A stretch of DNA of 64,000 bases from Halosimplex litoreum (GTDB taxonomy: Archaea; Halobacteriota; Halobacteria; Halobacteriales; Haloarculaceae), in assembly GCF_016065055.1 (NCBI RefSeq), contig NZ_CP065856.1, forward strand, positions 2,231,836 to 2,295,835, read 5' to 3'. The notes under the pieces were generated by a model that made no database searches, was not told the DNA's origin, and saw only the letters and a program-made list of their open reading frames with translations. Numbering within the stretch: position 1 is the stretch's first letter; each line of letters begins with the position of its first letter. Shown here in pieces: positions 11,976-25,290 of the stretch. The translations under genes and the position numbers were made by a program.

Positions 11976-12029
11976 GCCGATGCAGCAACAGCCACCGCGA
12001 TCGCCGATGCAGCAACCGCCACCGCGACC
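11976..12029 (+). repeat. Two tandem 27-bp repeats
   Basis: The unit at 11976-12002 is repeated at 12003-12029 with two changes (GCCGATGCAGCAACAGCC against GCCGATGCAGCAACCGCC, then ACCGCGATC/ACCGCGACC). It lies in the 594-base gene-free stretch after the MgtE-type genes. A unit of 27 could encode nine residues, but no supported gene covers it. There are no spacers, so it is not CRISPR-like. Confidence 0.8.
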
Positions 12030-12056
12030 ACGGACTCGATCGTGATCACAGACAGC

Positions 12057-12178
12057 GTGAAAGCCCCCACGTGCTCCGGTCGAGGGGTTCGCTGCGCTCC
12101 TCGCCTCGCTTCGCTCGGCTGTGGTGCTTGCATCACCCGTCTTCCCGGAGCACGTGGCCCCTTTCATTCCCACCCGCG
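12057..12178 (+). repeat. Structured intergenic repeat, copy A
   Basis: The copy starts GTGAAAGCCCC (12057-12067), has a 12-bp arm CACGTGCTCCGG (12068-12079), a GC-rich loop of 65 bases and the exact complementary arm CCGGAGCACGTG (12145-12156), and ends GCCCCTTTCATTCCCACCCG (from 12157). The outer blocks are shared with copy B. The loop contains CTTCGCTCG and GTGCTTGC. I do not recognise a named family; it could be a non-autonomous mobile element or a structured RNA. Confidence 0.78.
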
Positions 12179-12200
12179 TCGGCTGATCGGTCCGTCTGTG

Positions 12201-12373
12201 CGGGCGGGAATGAAAGGGGCAGCCTGCTTCGGGAAGCCCGACGCAGCAAGCACTGGAGCGAACGGAGTGAGCGAAGGGCGTGGTTCGAGAGAGCGAAGCT
12301 CTCTCGTCATCTCGAAAATCTTCGATTTTCGGCGACAGCAAGGCGCGCGACCGAAGCAGGCTGGGGCTTTCAC
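12201..12373 (-). repeat. Structured intergenic repeat, copy B (inverted)
   Basis: Read on the minus strand it has the same outer blocks as copy A: GTGAAAGCCCC (12373 to 12363) and GCCCCTTTCATTCCCGCCCG (12220 to 12201). Its 12-bp arms are AGCCTGCTTCGG (plus strand 12221-12232) and CCGAAGCAGGCT (12351-12362), fully complementary but different from those of copy A at four positions. The loop is longer (118 bases) and contains further small palindromes, for example CGAAAATCTTCGATTTTCG near 12313-12331. The remaining gene-free DNA to 12503 holds only a possible TATA (GTATATCAC, about 12418). Confidence 0.78.
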
Positions 12374-12503
12374 GCTGTTTGCGGTTCATGCGGTCGTGAC
12401 AGTCGCGATACCAGCGGTGTATATCACAGGTCGCCCAAATCACACACGTCGCCAGCCACCCGCACACGAAACCTCGAAGTAGGACGGATGCAAAGCCCCG
12501 CGC

Positions 12504-16175: not shown

Positions 16176-17606
16176 ATGACCGGTGACAGCGATCCGGGGA
16201 CGGACGCCGACGCCGCAGGCCAGGACGGTCTCGACGAGATCCACGTCGTGACGGTGTTCCTCCGCAACGAAGGGGCGATCCTCCTCCTCCGCCGGAGCGA
16301 CGCGGTCGGCTCCTACAGCGGGCACTGGGGCGCCGTCGCGGGCCACGCAGAGTGCGAGGCGCGACCACGGGGAGCGTCTCGGATACGCGAGCGGGGAGTG
16401 AGCGACGCGGAGCGACTCGCGAGCGAGGGCGATCCGGACGCCGCAGCGTACGAAGAGATACGGGAGGAGACGGGGCTCGACCCCGACGCCGACACCGCGC
16501 TGGTTCGGCGGGGAGACCCCTTCGCAGTCGTCGACGACGACCTCGGCAAGCGCTGGGTCGTCCACCCGTCCCTCTTCGACTCCGCGACTCGATCGGTCGA
16601 CCCGAACGAGGAGACCGACCAGTTCGAGTGGGTGGCGCCGACGGCGATCCTGCGCCGGAAGACGGTCCCCGATCTGTGGCGCTCCTACGACCGCGTGCGG
16701 CCGACGATCGAAACCGTCGCCGCCGACGCCGACCACGGGTCGGCCTGGCTCTCGCTGCGAGCGCTCGAGGTGCTCCGCGACGAGGCGGCGCTGGCGGCCG
16801 AGCGAGCCGACCACGTCGACTCGTGGTCGCAGCTCACGACACTCGCTCGCGACCTGCTCGACGCCCGCCCGTCGATGGCCGTCGTCGCCAACCGAGTCAA
16901 CCGAGCGATGGACGCCGCCGCCGAGGCGGCCACACCGGCGGCCCTCGAAGCGGCTGCCTTCGAAGGTACCGAACTATCGAAGGCCGCAGACGCCGATGCA
17001 GCCGCTTTCGCGGCCGATCGGGTCCCGGACCGAATCGCCACGCTGTCGCGGTCGGGGACGGTCGCGACGGCGGTCGAGCGGGCGGACCCGGAGGCGGTAC
17101 TGGTCGCCGAGTCGCGGCCCGGCCGGGAGGGTGTCGGGACCGCCGAGCGGCTCGCCGAGCGGACGGACGCGACGGTGACGCTCACGACCGACGCGGCGCT
17201 GGCCGACCGGCTGGCGGCGACGGATGTCGGGGCGGTCGTCGTCGGCGCCGACACGGTGCTTCCGGACGGTCGGGTCCTCAACAAGGTCGGGACGCGAGCG
17301 GCTGCCGCCGTCGCCGCGGCCGAGGGGATCGACTGCTACGTCGTCGCCGCGAGCGACAAGATCGCGGCGGCCGAAGCGCACGTCGACGGCGCCGACCCCG
17401 CAGAGGCCGACGGCGTCGACCGCGAGGAGCGCGACCCAGTTGAACTGTACGACGGCGACGCGTCCGTCGCCGTCGCGAATCCGACCTTCGACGTGACGCC
17501 TCCCGACCTGATCGACGCGGTCGTCACCGAGCGCGGCGCGCTGGACCCGGTCGGGACCCGCGAGGTCGCAGAGGAACACCGCGCGCTGGCCGCGTGGGAC
17601 GAGTAG
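16176..17606 (+). CDS. Nudix hydrolase fused to an eIF2B-alpha-like domain
   Basis: This 476-residue protein has an N-terminal Nudix domain (about 20-165) and a C-terminal initiation-factor-2B/ribose-1,5-bisphosphate-isomerase-type domain (about 215-470). The Nudix box end AAYEEIREETGL is at 90-101. The C-terminal domain has VVGADTVLPDGRVLNKVGT, the family ligand loop, but the cysteine found in isomerases is replaced by serine (LSRSGTV), so isomerase activity is doubtful. Residues about 60-84, in the loop just before the Nudix helix, are an inserted repeat (see 16356-16430). The role is unknown; a regulator or house-cleaning enzyme of sugar-nucleotide metabolism is a guess. Confidence 0.85.
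   Translation: MTGDSDPGTDADAAGQDGLDEIHVVTVFLRNEGAILLLRRSDAVGSYSGHWGAVAGHAECEARPRGASRIRERGVSDAERLASEGDPDAAAYEEIREETGLDPDADTALVRRGDPFAVVDDDLGKRWVVHPSLFDSATRSVDPNEETDQFEWVAPTAILRRKTVPDLWRSYDRVRPTIETVAADADHGSAWLSLRALEVLRDEAALAAERADHVDSWSQLTTLARDLLDARPSMAVVANRVNRAMDAAAEAATPAALEAAAFEGTELSKAADADAAAFAADRVPDRIATLSRSGTVATAVERADPEAVLVAESRPGREGVGTAERLAERTDATVTLTTDAALADRLAATDVGAVVVGADTVLPDGRVLNKVGTRAAAAVAAAEGIDCYVVAASDKIAAAEAHVDGADPAEADGVDREERDPVELYDGDASVAVANPTFDVTPPDLIDAVVTERGALDPVGTREVAEEHRALAAWDE
16356..16430 (+). repeat. In-frame palindromic repeat inside the Nudix gene
   Basis: This block of about 75 bases interrupts the Nudix domain and closely matches DNA at 24910-24977 in an unrelated gene. Shared blocks are GAGGCGCGACC, GAGCG-CTCGGA, GCGAGCGGGGAG and CGCGAGCGAGGGCGA. 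It contains inverted arms: GAGGCGC with GCGTCTC (one G-T pair) and CGCGAG with CTCGCG. Both copies are read in the same frame and give similar peptides (EARPxGAxRxxERG then ASEG). It resembles in concept the coding palindromic elements known from Rickettsia. Confidence 0.75.
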
Positions 17607-17686
17607 GAGCACCCGTGCTCGCCGCTCCGCATGCCTCGCGCCACACCGCACAACGGTTTTCACCGCGGCTCGCGTCCGATCGACCA

Positions 17687-18001
17687 GTGACAGCCGACGC
17701 CACCGCCGACGGAGTCGCAGAGTGCGTCGTCGTCCGGTACGCCCCGGTCACCGACCGGATCACCGAGGAACTGGAAACCTCGCGATACGGCACCTACCTC
17801 CGCCGCACCGAGGCGGGACCGGTCGCGACCGGAGACGAGTGGGAGGGCTTCGTGAGCCGCGGCTGCGGCGCCACCGTGGACGTGACGCTTTCCGTCGGAG
17901 CAGTCGAAGGCGGCGACCGCGTCGGCGAGACGACCGAGTTCGAGTTCGCGCCCACGATCGAGGGCGACGAGGACGAGGCAGCGACCGGAGACGACGACTG
18001 A
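17687..18001 (+). CDS. Hypothetical haloarchaeal protein, 104 residues
   Basis: The likely start is the GTG at 17687, which begins VTADATADGVAECVVVRYAPV; the frame is open further upstream but that part is basic and not halophile-like. The protein is soluble and acidic, with an all-beta-looking central part (VDVTLSVGAVEGG) and a strongly acidic tail. It lies 80 bases after the Nudix fusion gene and converges with the MBL-fold gene. I do not recognise a family. Confidence 0.6.
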   Translation: MTADATADGVAECVVVRYAPVTDRITEELETSRYGTYLRRTEAGPVATGDEWEGFVSRGCGATVDVTLSVGAVEGGDRVGETTEFEFAPTIEGDEDEAATGDDD

Positions 18002-18013
18002 CCGGCTCGCCGC

Positions 18014-18760
18014 TCAGCGCTCGTCGAGGGCGACGGGGACGCCGGCCTCGGCCACGTCGGCGGCGAACTCCCGGGAGTCGGTTTCGAGGGTGGAGAAGGT
18101 GTTGTAGTGGACGGGGACGACGAGCTCGGGCTGCATGCGAGCGGCGAGGACGGCGGCCTCGTGGCGGTCCATCGTGAACCGCGGACCGATGGGCGGGCAG
18201 AACACCGACACCTCGACGTTCTGGTGGGGGCCGAGCGCGTCCGTGTCGCCGGGGTAGAGCACTCGCTTGCCCTCGACGTCGACGAGGAAGCCACAGCCGA
18301 AGCCTTCGGGGTGGAACGGCGTGCCGTCGGGGCGGGTGTGTGGCCCGTCCTCCTCGTTGTACGCCGGCACCGTCCAGAGCTGGACGTCGTCGACGTTCAC
18401 CACCTCTTTGTCACCGACCGTCACGACCTCGCAGGACAGTGAATCCAGCGGCGGGAGTTGGCGATCTTCGACTCCCGCTTCGATACCTTCGAAGGCGACG
18501 ACCGTCGTGTCCTCGTTCGCGACGCGTTCGACGCCCTCGGGGTCGTAGTGGTGGACGTGCGTGAGACACACCACGTCGGCGTCTTCCGGGCGGTAGTTCC
18601 GCGCCGGCGGGTGGCCGATCCCTTCGGTGTCGGGTTCCCACTCGCCCGTGAGGACGCCGTATCGCCCGGGATCGGTGTAGACGACGGTGTCCTCGCCGGC
18701 GAACCGCAACGTGGCGTAGCCCAGCCACTCGACGGTGATCCCGTCGTGGCGCACGGTCAT
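18014..18760 (-). CDS. MBL-fold metal-dependent hydrolase
   Basis: This 248-residue protein belongs to the UlaG-like branch of the metallo-beta-lactamase fold. The first metal motif reads THVHHYD (about residues 67-73), a variant of HxHxDH. The GDTD block near 168-171 and the late PVHYNTFS histidine follow. The domain starts with the typical TVEWLGYATLRF strand pair. The ATG at 18760 was chosen over an upstream start at 18913 because the intervening codons cross promoter-like, poorly coding sequence. Substrate unknown. Confidence 0.87.
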   Translation of the reverse strand: MTVRHDGITVEWLGYATLRFAGEDTVVYTDPGRYGVLTGEWEPDTEGIGHPPARNYRPEDADVVCLTHVHHYDPEGVERVANEDTTVVAFEGIEAGVEDRQLPPLDSLSCEVVTVGDKEVVNVDDVQLWTVPAYNEEDGPHTRPDGTPFHPEGFGCGFLVDVEGKRVLYPGDTDALGPHQNVEVSVFCPPIGPRFTMDRHEAAVLAARMQPELVVPVHYNTFSTLETDSREFAADVAEAGVPVALDER

Positions 18761-18891
18761 TGCTCGCCCTACGCGTCTCGGCGCACATAAGTCGGGTGCC
18801 TTTCCGCCGAGCGTGTGTGTGTATACGATGTAGTGCACTGGATACGTGCCGACTACGTGAACTTTTGAGAGGCGACGGCGAACCCCTCGGT

Positions 18892-18922
18892 GGTGGCGAT
18901 GACGAGCGGTCACGCCACTGAG
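18892..18922 (+). repeat. Diverged direct repeat, copy 1 (C/D'-like)
   Basis: The first 16 bases (GGTGGCGATGACGAGC) are identical to 20692-20707, and the rest to CACTGAG matches with three changes and one gap. With its flank it can fold as CCTCGGTGG (18885-18893, partly outside the repeat) against CCACTGAGG (18915-18923), enclosing the conserved loop. It contains GCGATGA and CTGA, which resemble box C and box D'. The downstream half present in copy 2 is absent here. Confidence 0.6.
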
Positions 18923-18950
18923 GCTCGGTCTCTGTTACAGCGGTTCAAGG

Positions 18951-19210
18951 AGAAAGCCCACGGATTCAGCCGTGGGATGAATCCGACAACAGCCGAAATA
19001 ACTACCACGATTCATATCGTAGACTGTGCTACCGAGCCTCGGGTAAGGATATGCACGCCAGCGGGGTGGTAAATGAAGCCCGCTATCCGAGTCGGGGGCC
19101 GCACTGGCACGGCCCACAACCCCACCGAACGACCCGAGTGGGGAACCTCCCCCTCGTGGGCACGGTCTGTGACCGTGGAACCCCACGACTTCACTCGTGG
19201 GAGGATGTCA
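18951..19210 (+). mobile_element. IS200/IS605-type end or non-autonomous derivative, no transposase
   Basis: A hairpin CCCACGG-ATTCAG-CCGTGGG lies at 18957-18976 and a second, CCCACGA-CTTCAC-TCGTGGG, near the right edge at 19182-19201, followed by AGGATGTCA, which matches the right ends I know of haloarchaeal IS200/IS605 elements. Between them are about 200 bases that are GC-rich in the last 150 and rich in small hairpins, similar in position to the TnpB guide RNA region. No tnpA or tnpB coding sequence is present; the short open frame at 19051-19239 has no recognisable domain. It sits directly beside the Fic gene's 3' end. Confidence 0.5.
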
Positions 19211-19239
19211 GTGGCTCCATCGTCGCGCCGGTCGGGTAG

Positions 19240-20505
19240 CTATCGCTCGGGGAGCTTCCACGCCTGCTGGATGTCCACGAGTTCGTCCGGGTTCGGGAGC
19301 GTGTTCGCGGGTCGTTCGACGATGTCCATGATCTCTGCCGCTCTGAAAACCCGGTTCTGTTCGTTGCCCGTTATCTCCTCGACGGCGCCGTCCGCTTCGA
19401 GTTCGTCGACGGCGTTGTTCGCGGTCTGGTAGACGACGCCGATCCGCTCGCTGGCTTCCCGGACCGTGAAGTACGGGTCTTCGAACAGTGCCAGCGACAG
19501 TCGGCGAACGGACTTGGCCGCGTCGGCGTATCGTCGCTCGTACTCCGTTCGCCTCTCGACGAGCAGCCTCGCACGGACGAACGCCTCCTCGGCCTGCTCG
19601 CGGATACCCCGTAAGAAGAACTGAAGCCACTCGTCCCACGCGCCTTCCTCGCTCACGGCGAGCAACCGATCGGCGTACTCGGTCCGGTAGCGTTCGATGT
19701 AGGAACTCAGGTAGAGCATCGGGTAGTGGAGCAAGCCGCTGGCGACGAGCATGAGGACGACGAGCAGTCGGCCGACCCGTCCGTTGCCGTCTTTGAACGG
19801 GTGTATCGTCTCGAACTGGTAGTGTGCGACCGCGATGTCGACTAGGTCCGGCCAGTCGGAGCCCTGCTGGACGAACCGTTCGAGGTCGTCCATCAGTCGC
19901 TCGACCCCATCGGGTTTCGGTGGGACGAACCGGATTCGCTTCCCCAACCCCTGCGGACTCTCCTCCTCGATCACGGCGTACCCCGGCCGGTACTCCCCCG
20001 GAAGCGGGTCGTCATCTTTCGATCGACCCTCCACGAGGAGCTGCTCGTGGAGCGACTTGACGAGTTCCGTCGTGATGCTCTCCCGTTCGATACCGGCGGT
20101 CCGGAGAAACGAGATCGCGTCGTCGAGCGCCCCGATGTAATTCCGGGCCTCTCTGACATCGGCCTCGTGACCGGTCTCGATCGGCTCTCGTATCTCGAGT
20201 TCGTCGACATCGTAGCGATAGATGTCCGAGACCGTGACGGCCGTCCCCTCGACCCGAGAGGACTGTTCGGCTTCTTTGTAGACGAACGAACTGAACACCG
20301 CGCCGGGATTGTCGATCTCGCTCCCGAGCCCTTCGAGCCGCCCGAGGGCCCACATCGCTCTCGAGACCTCGTTTACAATATCGTCAGAGAGTTCTACTGC
20401 TGGCGGCAACCTGTCCGGGAAGTACGCCTTCGGGAGCCGTTCGCTGGTCCGCAGCGGCATGTATTGACCGGGTGCACTCGACGGGAGATCGTATCCGTCT
20501 TTCAT
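19240..20505 (-). CDS. Fic-domain protein with internal inhibitory helix and C-terminal winged helix
   Basis: This 421-residue protein is a probable AMP-transferase (or deAMPylase). The Fic motif HPFKDGNGRVGR is complete at 235-246. The class II inhibitory motif SSRVEG is at 82-87 within the same chain, so no separate antitoxin is required. The N-terminal domain (about 15-110) is the usual Fic N-terminal helical part and residues about 335-400 look like a winged helix that could bind DNA. Its promoter region is distinctly AT-rich, with TTTTTAATG (minus strand) at 20529-20537. Together with the nearby IS-like ends this suggests acquisition by transfer. Targets are unknown. Confidence 0.92.
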   Translation of the reverse strand: MKDGYDLPSSAPGQYMPLRTSERLPKAYFPDRLPPAVELSDDIVNEVSRAMWALGRLEGLGSEIDNPGAVFSSFVYKEAEQSSRVEGTAVTVSDIYRYDVDELEIREPIETGHEADVREARNYIGALDDAISFLRTAGIERESITTELVKSLHEQLLVEGRSKDDDPLPGEYRPGYAVIEEESPQGLGKRIRFVPPKPDGVERLMDDLERFVQQGSDWPDLVDIAVAHYQFETIHPFKDGNGRVGRLLVVLMLVASGLLHYPMLYLSSYIERYRTEYADRLLAVSEEGAWDEWLQFFLRGIREQAEEAFVRARLLVERRTEYERRYADAAKSVRRLSLALFEDPYFTVREASERIGVVYQTANNAVDELEADGAVEEITGNEQNRVFRAAEIMDIVERPANTLPNPDELVDIQQAWKLPER

Positions 20506-20690
20506 TGTCTACCGTTGGACGGCGCTTCATTAAAAATTCCTCCGCAATTCTAAAATCAATTCTCCATTGGCGTAGTGCATTTCAATTTTTCGCGCAACCT
20601 CAGTATTGGAGACGATCTCCGTAGCCACTATCGAATTCCGTCCGGATATAGATTGAATATCCTTTTCAGCGACGCCGGAGTATCCACGTA
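20506..20690 (-). promoter_or_regulatory. AT-rich promoter region of the Fic gene
   Basis: This gene-free stretch is strikingly AT-rich for the window (runs such as TTAAAAATTCC and TTCAATTTTTCG). A TATA-like TTTTTAATG on the minus strand lies about 24-32 bases before the Fic ATG, so the transcript should be nearly leaderless. The low GC differs from neighbouring intergenic DNA and supports foreign origin. Nothing else was recognised before the repeat at 20691. Confidence 0.5.
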
Positions 20691-20758
20691 CGGTGGCGAT
20701 GACGAGCAGTTACCCCCACTGAGCCCCTTGTGACGAGGACTTTCACCGAGCCACCGTC
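20689..20758 (+). ncRNA. Candidate C/D-box-like small RNA (repeat copy 2)
   Basis: The segment has a perfect 7-bp terminal stem, CGGTGGC (20691-20697) with GCCACCG (20750-20756). Inside it are GCGATGA (20696-20702, one change from box C RUGAUGA), CTGA (20719-20722), GTGACGA (20730-20736, C'-like) and CCGA (20746-20749, weak box D). The order C-D'-C'-D is that of archaeal 2'-O-methylation guides. Two boxes are imperfect and the guide targets could not be checked, so this is a hypothesis. The remaining bases to 20822 show nothing else. Confidence 0.3.
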
Positions 20759-20822
20759 TCACGCCCGCGAGCGGCGGCGCTGTAGCGGATCGACGAGCAA
20801 CCGAAAACAGCGACCGCGCCCG

Positions 20823-21194
20823 TCAGAACGGCGACGCAGGCCCTTCGTCGCTGTCGGTCGTCTCGGCGGCGTCGAGCGGCCCGTCCCAGTCGTTGAGTCC
20901 GCCGTGGAGGCTCTCGACGGGACCGTCGACGCCCTCGTAGGAGCCGACCAGGCGGGCGGCCTGGACGCTGGATTTACCCATCGGGCAGACCGTCACGACG
21001 CGGTCGGCGCCGTCGAGTTCCTCGACGCGGTCGGTGAGTTGGTTCGCCGGGATGTTCTCGCTGCCGGGGATGTGCCCGCGCTGGAACGAGCCCGGGTTCC
21101 GGATGTCGACGATCCGGAGGTCGTCGGCGGGATCGCCGTCGCCGTTCGTGTCCAGTAGCTCCTGCAGTTCCTCGCCGGAGATCTCGCCGTCCAT
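20823..21194 (-). CDS. Rhodanese-like domain protein
   Basis: This 123-residue single-domain rhodanese has the active loop VCPMGKSS with the cysteine near residue 75, the entry motif IVDIRNPGSFQRGHIPGS and a C-terminal GGLNDW block. Such proteins carry sulfane sulfur or act as small phosphatase-like folds. The start at 21194 gives the acidic N-terminus MDGEISGEELQ; the open frame further upstream is arginine-rich and non-coding in character. It lies 70 bases downstream of the Nudix trio on the same strand. Confidence 0.88.
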   Translation of the reverse strand: MDGEISGEELQELLDTNGDGDPADDLRIVDIRNPGSFQRGHIPGSENIPANQLTDRVEELDGADRVVTVCPMGKSSVQAARLVGSYEGVDGPVESLHGGLNDWDGPLDAAETTDSDEGPASPF

Positions 21195-21264
21195 CGTTGG
21201 CGGCGATCGGTGGCCGGACGGCATATGTTCGTCGGAGTTCGGCGAGCGAACCCCCCGGTACGAC

Positions 21265-21870
21265 CTACAGCAGCCCCTCGTCGCGGGCGACCAGCAGAGA
21301 GGTGAGTGGGGCGGCGAACGGAACGTCGCGGGACCGAACGGCGGCCACGGCCTCCTCGGCGGGGACGGCGAACACCTCGATGTCCTCGCCGCCCTCGCGG
21401 TCGACGGCCCCGGGTACCAGGTCGGTCGCGTAGACGACGGCCTGCCGCATCCGGGTCCACGCCGTGGGTTCGAACACCTCCAGCAGTTCGGCCTCACCGG
21501 CCCGGAAGCCGGTCTCCTCGCGTAACTCGCGGACGCCCGCGTCGACGAACGACTCGCCGTCGTCGACCGCGCCGCCGGGGACCGTGAGCAGCGACCGATC
21601 GAGCCGGGCGTCGTACTGTTCGAGCAGGAGGAGATCGCCGCCGGCCGTCTCGGCGACGACGGCCACGAAGTCGCCGGGGTCGATCCAGTAGTAGCGGCTC
21701 ACCGCGCCGTCGGGCTGGCGGTACTCGTCGTAGCCGGCGCTGAAGTAGGGGTTCTCCCAGACGACCTCGGTGTCGAGGAGCGCCCAGTCGGCGCCGGCGT
21801 CGGCGGGCGGGTCGGCGAGGTCGGCTGCGCTCGCTGGCGTCGGTTCGGCGGGTTCGCCGTCGTCGGTCAC
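21265..21870 (-). CDS. Nudix hydrolase, third of a tandem trio
   Basis: This 201-residue protein has an intact Nudix box (G-x5-E-x7-RELREETGF, about residues 102-124) and the ADP-ribose-pyrophosphatase-like layout with an LEQYD strand before the box. Its GTG start overlaps the stop of the preceding Nudix gene (GTGA). All three members share a tyrosine/tryptophan motif such as YYWIDPGD or YYWLASAD near residue 60. Likely substrates are nucleoside diphosphate derivatives such as ADP-ribose; specificity cannot be read. Confidence 0.9.
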   Translation of the reverse strand: MTDDGEPAEPTPASAADLADPPADAGADWALLDTEVVWENPYFSAGYDEYRQPDGAVSRYYWIDPGDFVAVVAETAGGDLLLLEQYDARLDRSLLTVPGGAVDDGESFVDAGVRELREETGFRAGEAELLEVFEPTAWTRMRQAVVYATDLVPGAVDREGGEDIEVFAVPAEEAVAAVRSRDVPFAAPLTSLLVARDEGLL

Positions 21871-22433
21871 AGATACCCCTCCTCGCGAGCGAGCAACAAT
21901 CCGGTGAGCGTGATCCCCTTCGACGGACCCTCGCGGTCGCGGAGTCGGTCGATAGCTTCGTCGGCGGGGACCGTCTGCACGTCGATGTACTCGCCGTCGT
22001 CGAGGTCGCGCTCGCCGCGGTCGAGGTCGGTGGCGACGTACACGTGGCGGACGTACCGCGTCCACGGCGACAGCGTGTGCGTTTCGAGGTGCGACAGATC
22101 GTCGGCGACGAATCCGGTCTCCTCGCGCAGTTCGCGCGCGGCCGCCGCCGCCGGGTCCTCGCCGTCTTCGACGAACCCGCCCGGAAGGCCGAGCGATCGC
22201 TGGCGGTAGCGCGGTCGGTACTGCTCGACCATAACGAGCTCGTCGTCGTCGGTGAGCGCGAGGACGGCCGCCGCGTCGGCGGAGGCGAGCCAGTAGTACT
22301 CGCCCTCAGTTCCGTCCGGTCGCCTGACCACGTCGTAGCCCGCCTCGCAAAACGGCGTCTCCCAGGCGACGACCGCTTCGCGGACCGGCCACTCGGGGTC
22401 GTCGTCCGCCCAGGGCGGGTCCGGCGGACTCAC
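21867..22433 (-). CDS. Nudix hydrolase, second of a tandem trio
   Basis: This 188-residue protein has the intact box G-FVEDG-E-x7-RELREETGF and the MVEQYRPRYRQRSLGLPGG strand that precedes it. GTG start and stop codons overlap its neighbours by four bases on each side, so the three genes are read as one translationally coupled unit. It ends in LLLAREEGYL, comparable to LLVARDEGLL and ILLAKEDGLL in the other two, which shows common ancestry by duplication. Confidence 0.9.
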   Translation of the reverse strand: MSPPDPPWADDDPEWPVREAVVAWETPFCEAGYDVVRRPDGTEGEYYWLASADAAAVLALTDDDELVMVEQYRPRYRQRSLGLPGGFVEDGEDPAAAAARELREETGFVADDLSHLETHTLSPWTRYVRHVYVATDLDRGERDLDDGEYIDVQTVPADEAIDRLRDREGPSKGITLTGLLLAREEGYL

Positions 22434-23047
22434 AGCAGTCCGTCTTCCTTGGCGAGCAGGATCCCCTCGATGGTGGCGTCGTTGGCGGGTTCGCGCCGGG
22501 CCACGTCGAGCGCGTCGTCGATGGGGACCGTCGTCACCGAGAGGAACTCGTTGCCGTCGAGCTTGCGTTCGACCGGTTCGAGTCCCTCGGCGAAGACGAT
22601 CCCCCGGCGGTGGCGCAACACTCCGGTCGAACACCAGAAGTCCTCGATCAGGGAGATCCCGGCGGGGTCGAAGCCGGTCTCCTCGCGCAGTTCGCGGGCG
22701 CCGGCGGTCGTGAACGACTCGCCGTCCTCGACGATGCCGGCGGGGAGTTCGAGACACTGCTCGCCGATGACGGGGCGGTACTGGTCGACGAGGACGAGCT
22801 CGTCGCCGGACCGCGCGACGACGACGACGGCGTCGGGGAGTTCGGCCCAGTAGTAGGACTTCTCGCTGCCGTCGGGCTGCTCGACGCGGTCGTAGCCGCC
22901 GGTGTACCAGCCGGTCTCGTACTCGGTCGCGCGGTCGGTGACCGGCCAGTCGTGGTCGGGTTCGCGGACCGGTTCACCGGCGGCGGGGGCAACCGTCTCC
23001 CCGTCTTCGTGGCCCGCACCGTGATCTGCGTCCTCGGGGTCGTTCAT
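22430..23047 (-). CDS. Nudix hydrolase, first of a tandem trio
   Basis: This 205-residue protein has the box G-IVEDG-E-x7-RELREETGF and the LVDQYRPVIGEQCLELPAG strand typical of ADP-ribose pyrophosphatases. After the box it has EDFWCSTGVLRHRRGIVFA, where the other two read TAWTRMRQAVVYA or SPWTRYVRHVYVA, so substrate pockets have diverged. Its ATG overlaps the stop of the upstream membrane-protein gene. The acidic 30-residue N-terminal extension is unique to this member. Confidence 0.9.
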   Translation of the reverse strand: MNDPEDADHGAGHEDGETVAPAAGEPVREPDHDWPVTDRATEYETGWYTGGYDRVEQPDGSEKSYYWAELPDAVVVVARSGDELVLVDQYRPVIGEQCLELPAGIVEDGESFTTAGARELREETGFDPAGISLIEDFWCSTGVLRHRRGIVFAEGLEPVERKLDGNEFLSVTTVPIDDALDVARREPANDATIEGILLAKEDGLL

Positions 23048-23466
23048 GGTCGCTGTGAGACCGCGACCCGGTAAAGCGTGCCGTTGTACGAGACGAGGAC
23101 GCCCGACTCGGAGACGGCGGTCGCGTTGCGCGCCGACAGCGCCGACCGCTCGTCGAACGGCGAGTGGGTGAACGACTCCTTGAACCCCCACGGCCCCTCC
23201 CGGTAGGGGTCGGAGGTGCCGTTGCGGAGCGCCTGCGTGGTGTAGGGGTACTGTCGCTCCGAGAGCGCCGACCCGTTGACTGCGGCGCTTTCGTTGATCG
23301 ATGCCGTTCCGTTCGCCGACGCGTTCGCCGCGTCGACGGGCTCGGCGGTGACGTAGTAGGGGTCGCCGCTCGCGAGCAGCGACGGCAGGGCACCGAGCGC
23401 GAGCAGCGCGACCATCACTCCGAGGATCAACAGCACGGCGTTGCGAGTGACCCGGCGCATACCCAT
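23044..23466 (-). CDS. Membrane-anchored exported protein, sequon-rich
   Basis: This 140-residue protein has a basic start (MGMRRVTRN) and one hydrophobic helix at about 10-32, then an outside domain rich in N-glycosylation sequons (NAS, NGT, NES, NGS, NGT, NAT, NGT). It is the first gene of the unit with the three Nudix genes, joined by an ATGA overlap. No cysteine lipobox is present, so it is a signal-anchored protein. A second in-frame ATG at 23460 is possible. Family not recognised. Confidence 0.72.
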   Translation of the reverse strand: MGMRRVTRNAVLLILGVMVALLALGALPSLLASGDPYYVTAEPVDAANASANGTASINESAAVNGSALSERQYPYTTQALRNGTSDPYREGPWGFKESFTHSPFDERSALSARNATAVSESGVLVSYNGTLYRVAVSQRP

Positions 23467-23523
23467 CGCTACGGCAGAGCGCGTGAAAACGACACGGATA
23501 CGCGACCGCGACGGGCGAACGCG

Positions 23524-24003
23524 CTACTCGTCGCCCGCTTCGTCCGTGGCACCACCGGACTCGTCGGATCCGGCCCCGTCGCCGTCGACGACCATCTCGC
23601 GATAGATTCGACCGAACGCCTGCCGGCGGAGTGTGCCGACGGCGGCCTCCCGTTCCTGGTGAAACGTGGCGGCGACGACCGTCTCGGCGGCCGGCGCGGC
23701 GTGCCAGACGACGCTGTCGACGTTCTCGCTACCGACCTCGCGGACTTCGTAGTCGTCGTTCTCGGCGACCCAGTCGTCGAATGTCTCGCGCGAGCCGACG
23801 CGGACCTCCAGCATGGAGGCGAACAGTGCGTCGCGGGCGGTCTCGACGACATCGCTCGTCACGCGGTCGCGGTACTCCTCGGCGTCCATCTCCATGGCTT
23901 TCGCGGTCTCCTTGACGACGACCTGCGCCGTCGACCCGAGCGCTTCGTAGCGCTCGCGGGCCGCGGCGGCGGTCGCCGGCGCGATCGTCCCCTCGGTGTC
24001 CAT
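23524..24003 (-). CDS. Haloarchaeal protein, probably DUF5809
   Basis: This 159-residue acidic soluble protein has a helical first half (ARERYEALGSTAQVVVKETAKAM) and a mixed second half with VVWHAAPAAETVVAATFHQER. I recall this type as the haloarchaeal DUF5809 family, usually next to DUF5810, and the next gene upstream fits DUF5810; this naming is from memory. A disordered acidic tail ends it. Function unknown. Upstream and downstream gaps are short, so it is probably co-transcribed with the gene before it. Confidence 0.7.
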   Translation of the reverse strand: MDTEGTIAPATAAAARERYEALGSTAQVVVKETAKAMEMDAEEYRDRVTSDVVETARDALFASMLEVRVGSRETFDDWVAENDDYEVREVGSENVDSVVWHAAPAAETVVAATFHQEREAAVGTLRRQAFGRIYREMVVDGDGAGSDESGGATDEAGDE

Positions 24004-24027
24004 ACGACACGGTTCGGCCGCCGTGCC

Positions 24028-24555
24028 TTAGGAATTCCCGGTTTCGTCGCCGTCGGCCCCGGTCTCGGTCGCGTCTTCGGCGTCTCCGTCGTCGGTGCCA
24101 CCGTCGCCGCCGGCGTTCTCCCGACGCCTGCGCGTCAGCTCCTTCGCCTCGGCGAGCACGTCGTCGGTCTCGCCCTCGAAGTCGTCGAGGTCGGCGACGC
24201 CGCCCGGCGCCGCGCTCTCGACGGCGTCGGGGGTACCGGAGGCTCGACCGCCGCCGTATTGGTGGCCGTGGCCGTCGCCGTGCTGGTGGCCGCTCCCGTG
24301 GTCGTGCTGGTGACCGCCACCGTGGTCGTGGCCGCCGGTCGTGTCCTCGAAGACCTGCGGGAACTCCGCCTCCTCGGCGTGGTCGACGACGTGTTCGGCG
24401 AGTTCCGGCGGGTCCATCGCCGCCCAGCCGTCGATGCGGTCGTCGAGCCACGCCTCGTGGTCGCCCCCGCGGAGCATGGCCGTGAACGCGAGGTGGTTGG
24501 CGAGGTGCTCGGCGTCGGTCTGAGGGTCGCCGCAGACGGGACACGCGTAGCCCAT
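24028..24555 (-). CDS. Zinc-finger and His-rich haloarchaeal protein, probably DUF5810
   Basis: This 175-residue protein starts MGYACPVCGDPQ and carries HLANHLAFTAM soon after, giving a CxxC...HxxxH zinc site. A middle stretch (about 75-110) alternates His, Gly and Asp (HDHGGGHQHDHG), likely a metal-binding or flexible segment. The C-terminus is basic, then acidic and disordered. An in-frame start nine codons upstream (24582) exists, but the family N-terminus begins at the zinc finger. It precedes the DUF5809-like gene by 24 bases. Confidence 0.75.
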   Translation of the reverse strand: MGYACPVCGDPQTDAEHLANHLAFTAMLRGGDHEAWLDDRIDGWAAMDPPELAEHVVDHAEEAEFPQVFEDTTGGHDHGGGHQHDHGSGHQHGDGHGHQYGGGRASGTPDAVESAAPGGVADLDDFEGETDDVLAEAKELTRRRRENAGGDGGTDDGDAEDATETGADGDETGNS

Positions 24556-24654
24556 ACCCGACCCGACGACCGCGAGGCGCATATGCCTTTCAGGACCGGG
24601 CGCGCGTCGGGGGAGCCGACACACGTAAGGACCGGACGCTCGTCCTGTCGGGTG

Positions 24655-25290
24655 ATGTGGCCCTGGGGACACCTGGCGATGGCGTACCTCGTCTACAGCT
24701 GTTACTCGCGACTCCGGCGGGGTCACCGCCCGACCGCCGCGACCGCGCTGGTCGTCGTCTTCGCCTCGCAGTTCCCCGACCTGGTCGACAAGCCGCTCGC
24801 GTGGACGCTGTCGGTCCTGCCCTCCGGGCGGTCGCTCGCCCACTCGCTGCTCGTGTTGGTGCCGCTGGTCGCGCTGTTGTACTCGGTCGCCCGGGTCCGC
24901 GAGGAGGGCGAGGCGCGACCGGCGGGAGCGCCTCGGAACAGCGAGCGGGGAGGAGGACGACCCGCGAGCGAGGGCGAGGAGCCGCTGGCGGTCGCGTTCG
25001 GGATCGGCGCGCTCGTCCACACGTTCGGCGACGCGTTCTACTCGCTGGTCGCACTGGAGCTCCGCGAGGCCGGGTTCGTGCTGTGGCCCGCGGTGCCGCC
25101 GCTGGAGTACGAGGTCGAGCAGAGCTTCGCCGCGCACTTCGCGCTGGTCGAGGCCTCGCCGGAGCTGTACTTCGAGTTCCTGCTCGTCGCCGTCGCCGCC
25201 GTCGTCTGGCGCGCCGACGGCTATCCCGGTCTCGCGACCGTCCTCGCGCTGCCCGCCCGTGCCTGGCGCGGTGTCACCGGCGCCGAGTGA
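24655..25290 (+). CDS. YdjM-type membrane-bound metal-dependent hydrolase
   Basis: This 211-residue membrane protein belongs to the family annotated as inner-membrane metal-dependent hydrolases. Its conserved polar residues are visible: WPWGHLAMAY at 2-11, FPDLVDKP at 40-47, AHSLL at 62-66 and HTFGDAFYS at 122-130. Residues about 83-109 are a hydrophilic, arginine-rich insertion in the loop between two hydrophobic helices; it is the second copy of the repeat found at 16356. The molecular role of the family is not established. Confidence 0.82.
   Translation: MWPWGHLAMAYLVYSCYSRLRRGHRPTAATALVVVFASQFPDLVDKPLAWTLSVLPSGRSLAHSLLVLVPLVALLYSVARVREEGEARPAGAPRNSERGGGRPASEGEEPLAVAFGIGALVHTFGDAFYSLVALELREAGFVLWPAVPPLEYEVEQSFAAHFALVEASPELYFEFLLVAVAAVVWRADGYPGLATVLALPARAWRGVTGAE
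24910..24977 (+). repeat. In-frame palindromic repeat inside the membrane hydrolase gene
   Basis: This is the second copy of the element at 16356-16430. The first hairpin is perfect here: GAGGCGC (24910-24916) with GCGCCTC (24928-24934). A second pairing is GCGGG with CCCGC. Compared with the other copy it lacks about nine bases (a multiple of three), so the reading frame is kept. It encodes EARPAGAPRNSERGG and ASEGE, in the same frame as the Nudix copy. Confidence 0.75.

Follow-up and report, generated by a model that had tools for sequence, protein, structure and literature searches.

A capped two-hairpin repeat, probably mobile, is read in frame within unrelated genes of the haloarchaeon Halosimplex litoreum

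How does one palindromic DNA segment come to lie, in frame, within two unrelated protein genes of an archaeon? The question is raised by a 64,000-nucleotide stretch of Halosimplex litoreum (contig NZ_CP065856.1, positions 2,231,836 to 2,295,835, forward strand; hereafter the window), in which an initial annotation, made from the letters alone, had noted a shared repeat inside the Nudix domain of a fusion protein and inside a loop of a YdjM-type membrane protein. Our analysis, based on searches and ~308 kb of genome stretches, finds one dispersed element copied in both segments, at 16353-16427 (75 bp) and at 24913-24978 (66 bp), and finds that each is an in-frame insertion. They very probably belong to a haloarchaeal family of short, non-autonomous, mobile repeats built of two hairpins, A and B. 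Pfam assigns the gene at 16176-17606 to NUDIX plus IF-2B and the gene at 24655-25290 to YdjM. The parts of the two copies are as follows.

16353-16427, plus strand: 75-bp in-frame insert in the Nudix domain of the NUDIX/IF-2B fusion gene, adding 25 amino acids between the GHAE and GDPDAA segments (codon alignment); its exact placement inside the flanking repeats is a convention
16355-16381, plus strand: hairpin A of the Nudix copy, CGAGGCGC-GACCACGGGGA-GCGTCTCG, one arm pair mismatched (R1 hairpin model, 26.5 bits)
16387-16424, plus strand: hairpin B of the Nudix copy, GCGAGCGGG...CTCGCGAGC, degenerate, with an enlarged loop (alignment to other copies)
16350-16357, plus strand: left flanking repeat of the Nudix copy, GAGTGCGA (sequence; the native site in relatives is GAGGGCGA)
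16425-16432, plus strand: right flanking repeat of the Nudix copy, GAGGGCGA, the gene's native sequence (sequence)
24913-24978, plus strand: 66-bp in-frame insert in the YdjM gene, adding 22 amino acids in a loop between membrane segments (orthologue alignment)
24909-24935, plus strand: hairpin A of the YdjM copy, CGAGGCGC-GACCGGCGGGA-GCGCCTCG, perfect 8-bp arms (R1 match, 35.9 bits; folds as DNA and RNA)
24941-24969, plus strand: hairpin B of the YdjM copy, GCGAGCGGG-GAGGAGGACGA-CCCGCGAGC, arms kept, cap decayed (sequence, comparison with other copies, fold)
24904-24912, plus strand: left flanking repeat of the YdjM copy, GAGGGCGAG (sequence; the stretch is present once in empty orthologues)
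24970-24978, plus strand: right flanking repeat of the YdjM copy, GAGGGCGAG, the same as the left (sequence)

Each of the four strings that the initial annotation had listed as common to the two sites was found where it had been placed, and local alignment of the two segments scored 104, against a best score of 62 among ~3000 random 105-bp window pairs. Scanning the window with R1, a 27-nt covariance model of the hairpin, gave two clear matches, hairpin A of the YdjM copy (E 2e-6) and of the Nudix copy (E 5e-4). The lengths of both inserts are divisible by three, and hairpin A is read in the identical frame, (NGC)(GAG)(GCG)(CGA), in both. As a refinement of the proposed hairpins, the left one is a good palindrome in both copies apart from the mismatched pair of the Nudix copy; hairpin B is degenerate in both and becomes clear only when compared with intergenic copies. 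Folding programs recover the hairpins, with strong RNA z scores of -4.4 (YdjM copy) and -1.9 (Nudix copy), while with DNA parameters the z scores are modest or nil (-1.5 and 0.0, respectively).

Comparison with relatives revealed empty counterparts of both sites. The 22 YdjM residues are absent at the same codon in four congeneric orthologues, as they are in every other aligned orthologue of the family, leaving a clean DNA gap of 66 bp. The 25 Nudix residues are present in congener G013 and absent in G056, G032 and G043; in the codon alignment, the congeneric orthologues L068, L069 and L070 are empty and L067 is occupied, and a related insert stands at the same place in G008, from a different genus. 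The initial annotation had named, as the outcome that would speak against an inserted element, distant orthologues all carrying the segment and no further genomic copies; we found the opposite, orthologues lacking the segment and many copies. Seven genes beyond the two in the window also have empty sites in congeners, as listed below for a comparison that covers five congeners and excludes the tRNA synthetase site.

DR2241-type gene: insert in H. litoreum only
Isochorismatase-fold gene: insert in H. litoreum and G056; empty in G013
MMPL gene: insert in H. litoreum and G013; empty in three congeners
Gene at 3179768: insert in H. litoreum, G013 and G043; empty in two
ECH gene: insert in H. litoreum, G013 and G043 (with other arms); empty in two
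Gene at 3464232: insert in H. litoreum and G043; empty in three
Gene at 3811477: insert in H. litoreum and G013; empty in G056 and G043

An insert at the C-terminus of MsrB (G000:C1:1870632, L004, where G000 is the H. litoreum genome) is likewise shared with G013, and three congeners are empty; this insert carries an A:T variant of the cap described below, and its TGA serves as a new stop codon, as it does in G013. At the GNAT site, length varies between species and the empty state is not clean. Five native targets read GAG^GGCGA and that of MMPL reads GAG^CGCG; clean flanking repeats are GAGGGCGAG (YdjM, and ECH of G013) and GAGGAGCGCGA (MMPL).

These genic copies are a minority of a large family. 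A blastn search with the 72-bp YdjM copy hit 44 places in the H. litoreum genome; matches of 20-22 bp at 2945234, 3645748 and 2116664, two of which would be antisense, were set aside as chance. The R1 model gave at least 143 matches at E <= 1 in 81 clusters, a lower bound obtained with 150 of 6046 candidates scored. By gene calls made from codon usage, not annotation, 72 clusters are intergenic, 7 lie within genes and 2 at gene 3' edges. Where a cluster holds more than one hairpin, all lie on one strand in 45/46 cases. In the full unit, hairpin A precedes hairpin B on one strand, with a linker of 3-6 nt between them; the arms vary, the cap is common to both, and the double hairpin is found in other genera as well. 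The initial annotation had asked for a census of haloarchaeal genomes and genic copies: R1 matches were present in 111 of the 116 haloarchaeal genomes sampled, and the H. litoreum genome has 12 in-frame genic copies. Of 101 genomes from outside the class, about 7 gave one marginal match each, slightly more than the ~1 expected from the E-value cut on a rough calibration. Within the phylum the hairpin is nearly confined to haloarchaea and is essentially absent elsewhere. No R1 match was found in the YdjM neighbourhoods of 16 named haloarchaeal loci, indicating that copies are sparse per region.

The conserved part of the unit is the cap. Both hairpins are capped by GA-X-C-GNA-G-X'-GA, and the outer arms vary yet remain complementary. 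Among hairpins with arms of at least 6 bp, 94 have the loop GA.7.GA, most other flanking dinucleotides gave 0-6, and CG..CG gave 48 in the same stretches; the TC loop count is the GA set read from the other strand. As these stretches were picked for holding matches, the contrast between loops is informative and the absolute number is not. C-GNA-G is present in 76 of the 94 (N is A in 35, G in 22, C in 17 and T in 2), and X and X' form A-T, C-G or G-C. Pairing covaries strongly: the X:X' pair, which was not a selection criterion, holds in 32/33 aligned sequences with 19 double changes, while the arm pairs are not independent evidence because the aligned sequences were selected for arm complementarity. 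The core d(C-GNA-G) is a mini-hairpin that Hirao and colleagues described; it is nuclease resistant and, as GCGAAGC, melts at 78 C (PMC4686876). The element cap, X-C-GNA-G-X', falls in the same sequence class as the d(GCGNAGC) mini-hairpins, with a GNA loop, a free N and two pairs; there, however, it is a structural and engineering motif, and here it caps a genomic repeat beside tandem G.A mismatches (PMC4686876).

All 12 genic copies are in frame, with the open reading frames open through the insert, and the MsrB C-terminus is a further case. The inserts add ~48-75 bp, predicted from the reading frames to encode ~16-25 extra amino acids, in genes that include a class I tRNA synthetase, an isochorismatase-fold protein, MMPL, GNAT, ECH and a DR2241-type protein. 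The suggested check for frame and orientation bias gave a uniform answer: 12/12 copies are sense (two-sided p = 0.0005), and hairpin A is read (NGC)(GAG)(G..) wherever the usual arm is present. Avoidance of stop codons was rejected as the source of this bias. In 16 intergenic copies, stops occur in 6, 13 and 6 for the three sense frames and in 1, 0 and 0 for the antisense frames; the latter are nearly stop-free, so that stop avoidance predicts the opposite bias. The antisense frames are less polar, with aspartate plus glutamate at 2%, 3% and 0%, and protein chemistry in an acidic halophile proteome is therefore a plausible reason for the orientation.

Peptide selection cannot account for a second bias. 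All 15 copies that lie within 30 bp of the 3' end of a gene are also sense, and no bias is seen farther off. Stop-adjacent copies often begin at a TAG stop codon: counted by eye, sites with a hairpin have TAG in 15 cases, TAA in 1 and TGA in 0, and sites without one have TAG in 8, TGA in 6 and TAA in 1. At one such 3' site, behind a gene that we take from its sequence to be fumarase, hairpins follow TAG in four species with four different arm pairs, and a fifth species has none. The arms in three of these species are GGAGATTC/GAATCTCC, CGTGGTTC/GAACCACG and GGAGGTAC/GCACCTCC, around a constant cap.

A second two-hairpin unit of ~57 bp (GTCTGCGC...GCGCAGGCTCGGAAGAC...GTCTTCCGGC) is inserted within hairpin B of the first element at L131, L136, L144, L155 and L173 (G000 480945, 942934, 1691693, 2325702 and 4099158); other copies have an intact B. 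The A+B unit is also central to a larger intergenic repeat of at least ~120 bp, GTGCTGTCGAGCGGTGCGAGG...GAGCGTGCCCGCCTC...CCGCTCGA (G000:C1 2318422, 3665056, 297347, 1281225 and 3391175). In the window, the gene-free region 12000-12450 holds two short cap motifs (12103-12119, minus strand; 12258-12272, plus strand) and repeated GGAATGAAAGGGGC-type blocks, and resembles the larger mosaic repeats found between genes. In another haloarchaeal family, L237 has a sense-oriented copy within a predicted 506-aa gene.

The analysis shows that copies are dispersed, that occupied sites have empty counterparts, that orientation and frame are biased, that pairing covaries and that the family is restricted to one clade, and we propose the following account of these findings. 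Copies build up mainly between genes, some directly behind stop codons, and a minority insert in genes, where GAG^GGCGA is favoured and GAGGGCGA(G) is left on either side. The genic copies that survive are sense, in the frame giving a polar peptide, and in protein loops tolerant of extra residues, where they may persist as near-neutral passengers. Mobility could depend on an enzyme that acts in trans on the hairpin in single-stranded DNA. A wider generalization, that this is a haloarchaea-wide class of mobile DNA defined by its cap, with arms exchangeable and rewritten by fold-back copying and units doubling as 3'-end hairpins and in-frame inserts, is one we put forward tentatively, as a possibility short of an even chance.

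A number of points weigh against this account. No actual movement was observed, and the element has no linked transposase; the sole Y1 transposase found in the genome (PF01797) is an IS605 tnpA, whose end-hairpin loop is TCTTCAGG. The flanking repeats vary in length (~8-13 bp) and could reflect element ends that resemble the target in place of target duplication. Several shared inserts fit no single consistent tree order, which implies that recombination or loss is also at work, and the codon-usage gene calls count on the same side.

The strongest alternative, which we consider possible but doubtful, dispenses with dedicated transposition: template switching guided by microhomology, or gene conversion, would spread the element from its many other copies, and fold-back copying at quasi-palindromes would rewrite its arms. 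GCGAG stands at either end of the element, and the targets in which it lands contain GCGA beforehand; the native sites hold GGCGA or CGCG matching its left end, and this reading also fits the variable flanking repeats, the lack of a matching transposase and the way in which arms differ at the same orthologous site around a constant cap (the fumarase 3' site; ECH, GGAGGGC/GCCCTCC vs CGAGGCGC/GCGCCTCG). Alone, however, it leaves the strict sense orientation beside stops, the TAG association and the cross-genus two-hairpin layout unexplained. A left arm templated wholly by the target was rejected; it fits ECH and the DR2241-type gene and fails for Nudix, whose arm no longer matches the native sequence beyond GGCGA. 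Our first choice of mechanism is mobilisation of single-strand hairpins in trans, followed by template switching or conversion, and both could act.

Somewhat less probable, and in our view unlikely, is that the hairpins are mainly functional RNA at mRNA 3' ends, selected as terminators or stabilisers, with the genic copies accidental. The sense bias of copies within 30 bp of a 3' end, not seen farther off, T-runs after some hairpins, the covarying arms at orthologous 3' sites and the strong RNA fold of the YdjM copy all agree with such a role, but most copies are away from 3' ends, orthologous genes often have no hairpin, copies lie within genes and the cap matches a super-stable DNA loop.

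More improbable still is that the elements are palindrome-associated transposable elements (PATEs), which are derived from IS605 and carry near-terminal palindromes, as in Haloquadratum. Their size (52 bp for terminal-only PATEs), lack of inverted terminal repeats and two same-strand palindromes are similar (PMC3119063), but PATE palindromes resemble IS605 ends, and PATEs lack the target duplication that the 9-11 bp repeats flanking clean genic inserts could represent. An IS605 origin was rejected, as the only Y1 transposase locus has a different hairpin loop and no R1 match. That locus, L240 (G000:C1:51280), is an IS605-type element with tnpA and tnpB, and two of its hairpins, which have the common loop TCTTCAGG and differing arms, show the same pattern of fixed loop and free arms. 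Finally, the reading of the shared segment as a conserved loop native to the proteins, or as something that arose by chance in coding sequence of 70% GC, has almost no probability left: Nudix loop length does vary across the family, but the alignment is far above random pairs, intergenic copies have the same architecture and the empty orthologues at both sites refute it.

In-frame palindromic insertion in many unrelated genes was formerly a curiosity of Rickettsia with a few parallels in bacterial repetitive extragenic palindromic (REP) sequences, and can now be followed gene by gene in archaea. The same genes are found in several species at different stages (filled, empty, with different arms), making direct tests feasible of how proteins tolerate sudden inserts of 16-25 residues, why one strand and one frame survive, and how an element spreads without its own enzyme. 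The cap, a known super-stable DNA structure, offers a concrete biochemical handle. Annotation is affected as well, given that the inserts resemble native loops of haloarchaeal proteins.

Literature searches with cap and arm sequences and by topic found no description of the element, with subscription journals thinly covered and an earlier account possible, and 'halo' is absent from the text of a 2025 REP survey (PMC12306157). The likeness to the coding elements of Rickettsia that the initial annotation proposed holds for behaviour, namely in-frame insertion in unrelated open genes with orthologues that lack the insert. Rickettsia palindromic elements (RPEs) are also short palindromic repeats read in frame within unrelated functional genes, but are ~150 bp and known for genic copies (PMC10969869), whereas here copies are mostly intergenic, genic inserts are 48-75 bp, there are two hairpins and the host is archaeal; judging from GC content and host, a sequence relation to an RPE family is unlikely. 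Compared with miniature inverted-repeat transposable elements, terminal inverted repeats matching a resident transposon were not found, the ends being direct GCGAG, in a comparison that covered part of the resident transposons.

PATEs of Haloquadratum walsbyi are transposase-free haloarchaeal repeats down to 52 bp, without inverted ends and with near-terminal palindromes (PMC3119063). Our element likewise has palindromes near both ends (hairpins A and B) and direct ends, GCGAG...GCGAGC; its palindromes are unlike those of the resident IS605, whose loop is TCTTCAGG. PATEs leave no target duplication (PMC3119063), and the 9-11 bp repeats at YdjM, MMPL and ECH (G013) pose the question of one here, yet the element ends resemble the target. 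REP sequences and REP dimers are small many-copy hairpins, often dimeric, mostly intergenic and near 3' ends, and some within open reading frames encode 20-30 aa (PMC3733652). High-copy, mostly extragenic hairpins are found here too (72/81 clusters). The GTAG/CGTC foot tag is not: a TAG foot occurs in the stop-adjacent subset only, and other feet read TGCGAGG, AGCGAGG and so on. Nor did we find a REP-associated tyrosine transposase (RAYT, of the Y1 type), the partner of the GTAG class, the single PF01797 gene in the genome being the IS605 tnpA with other hairpins. REP dimers further differ in being head-to-head with a conserved stem, where here the hairpins lie on the same strand and the loop is conserved. 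The initial annotation had missed that copies are mostly intergenic, that conservation lies in the cap, not in the sequence of the arms, that the family is haloarchaea-wide and that REP dimers are an equally close analogue. RPEs, REP dimers and PATEs each share behaviour with the element, and REP and PATE each fail at least one tested defining feature; from RPE and REP it is distinguished by its cap, its genic target GAG^GGCGA and the absence of a Y1 transposase that matches it.

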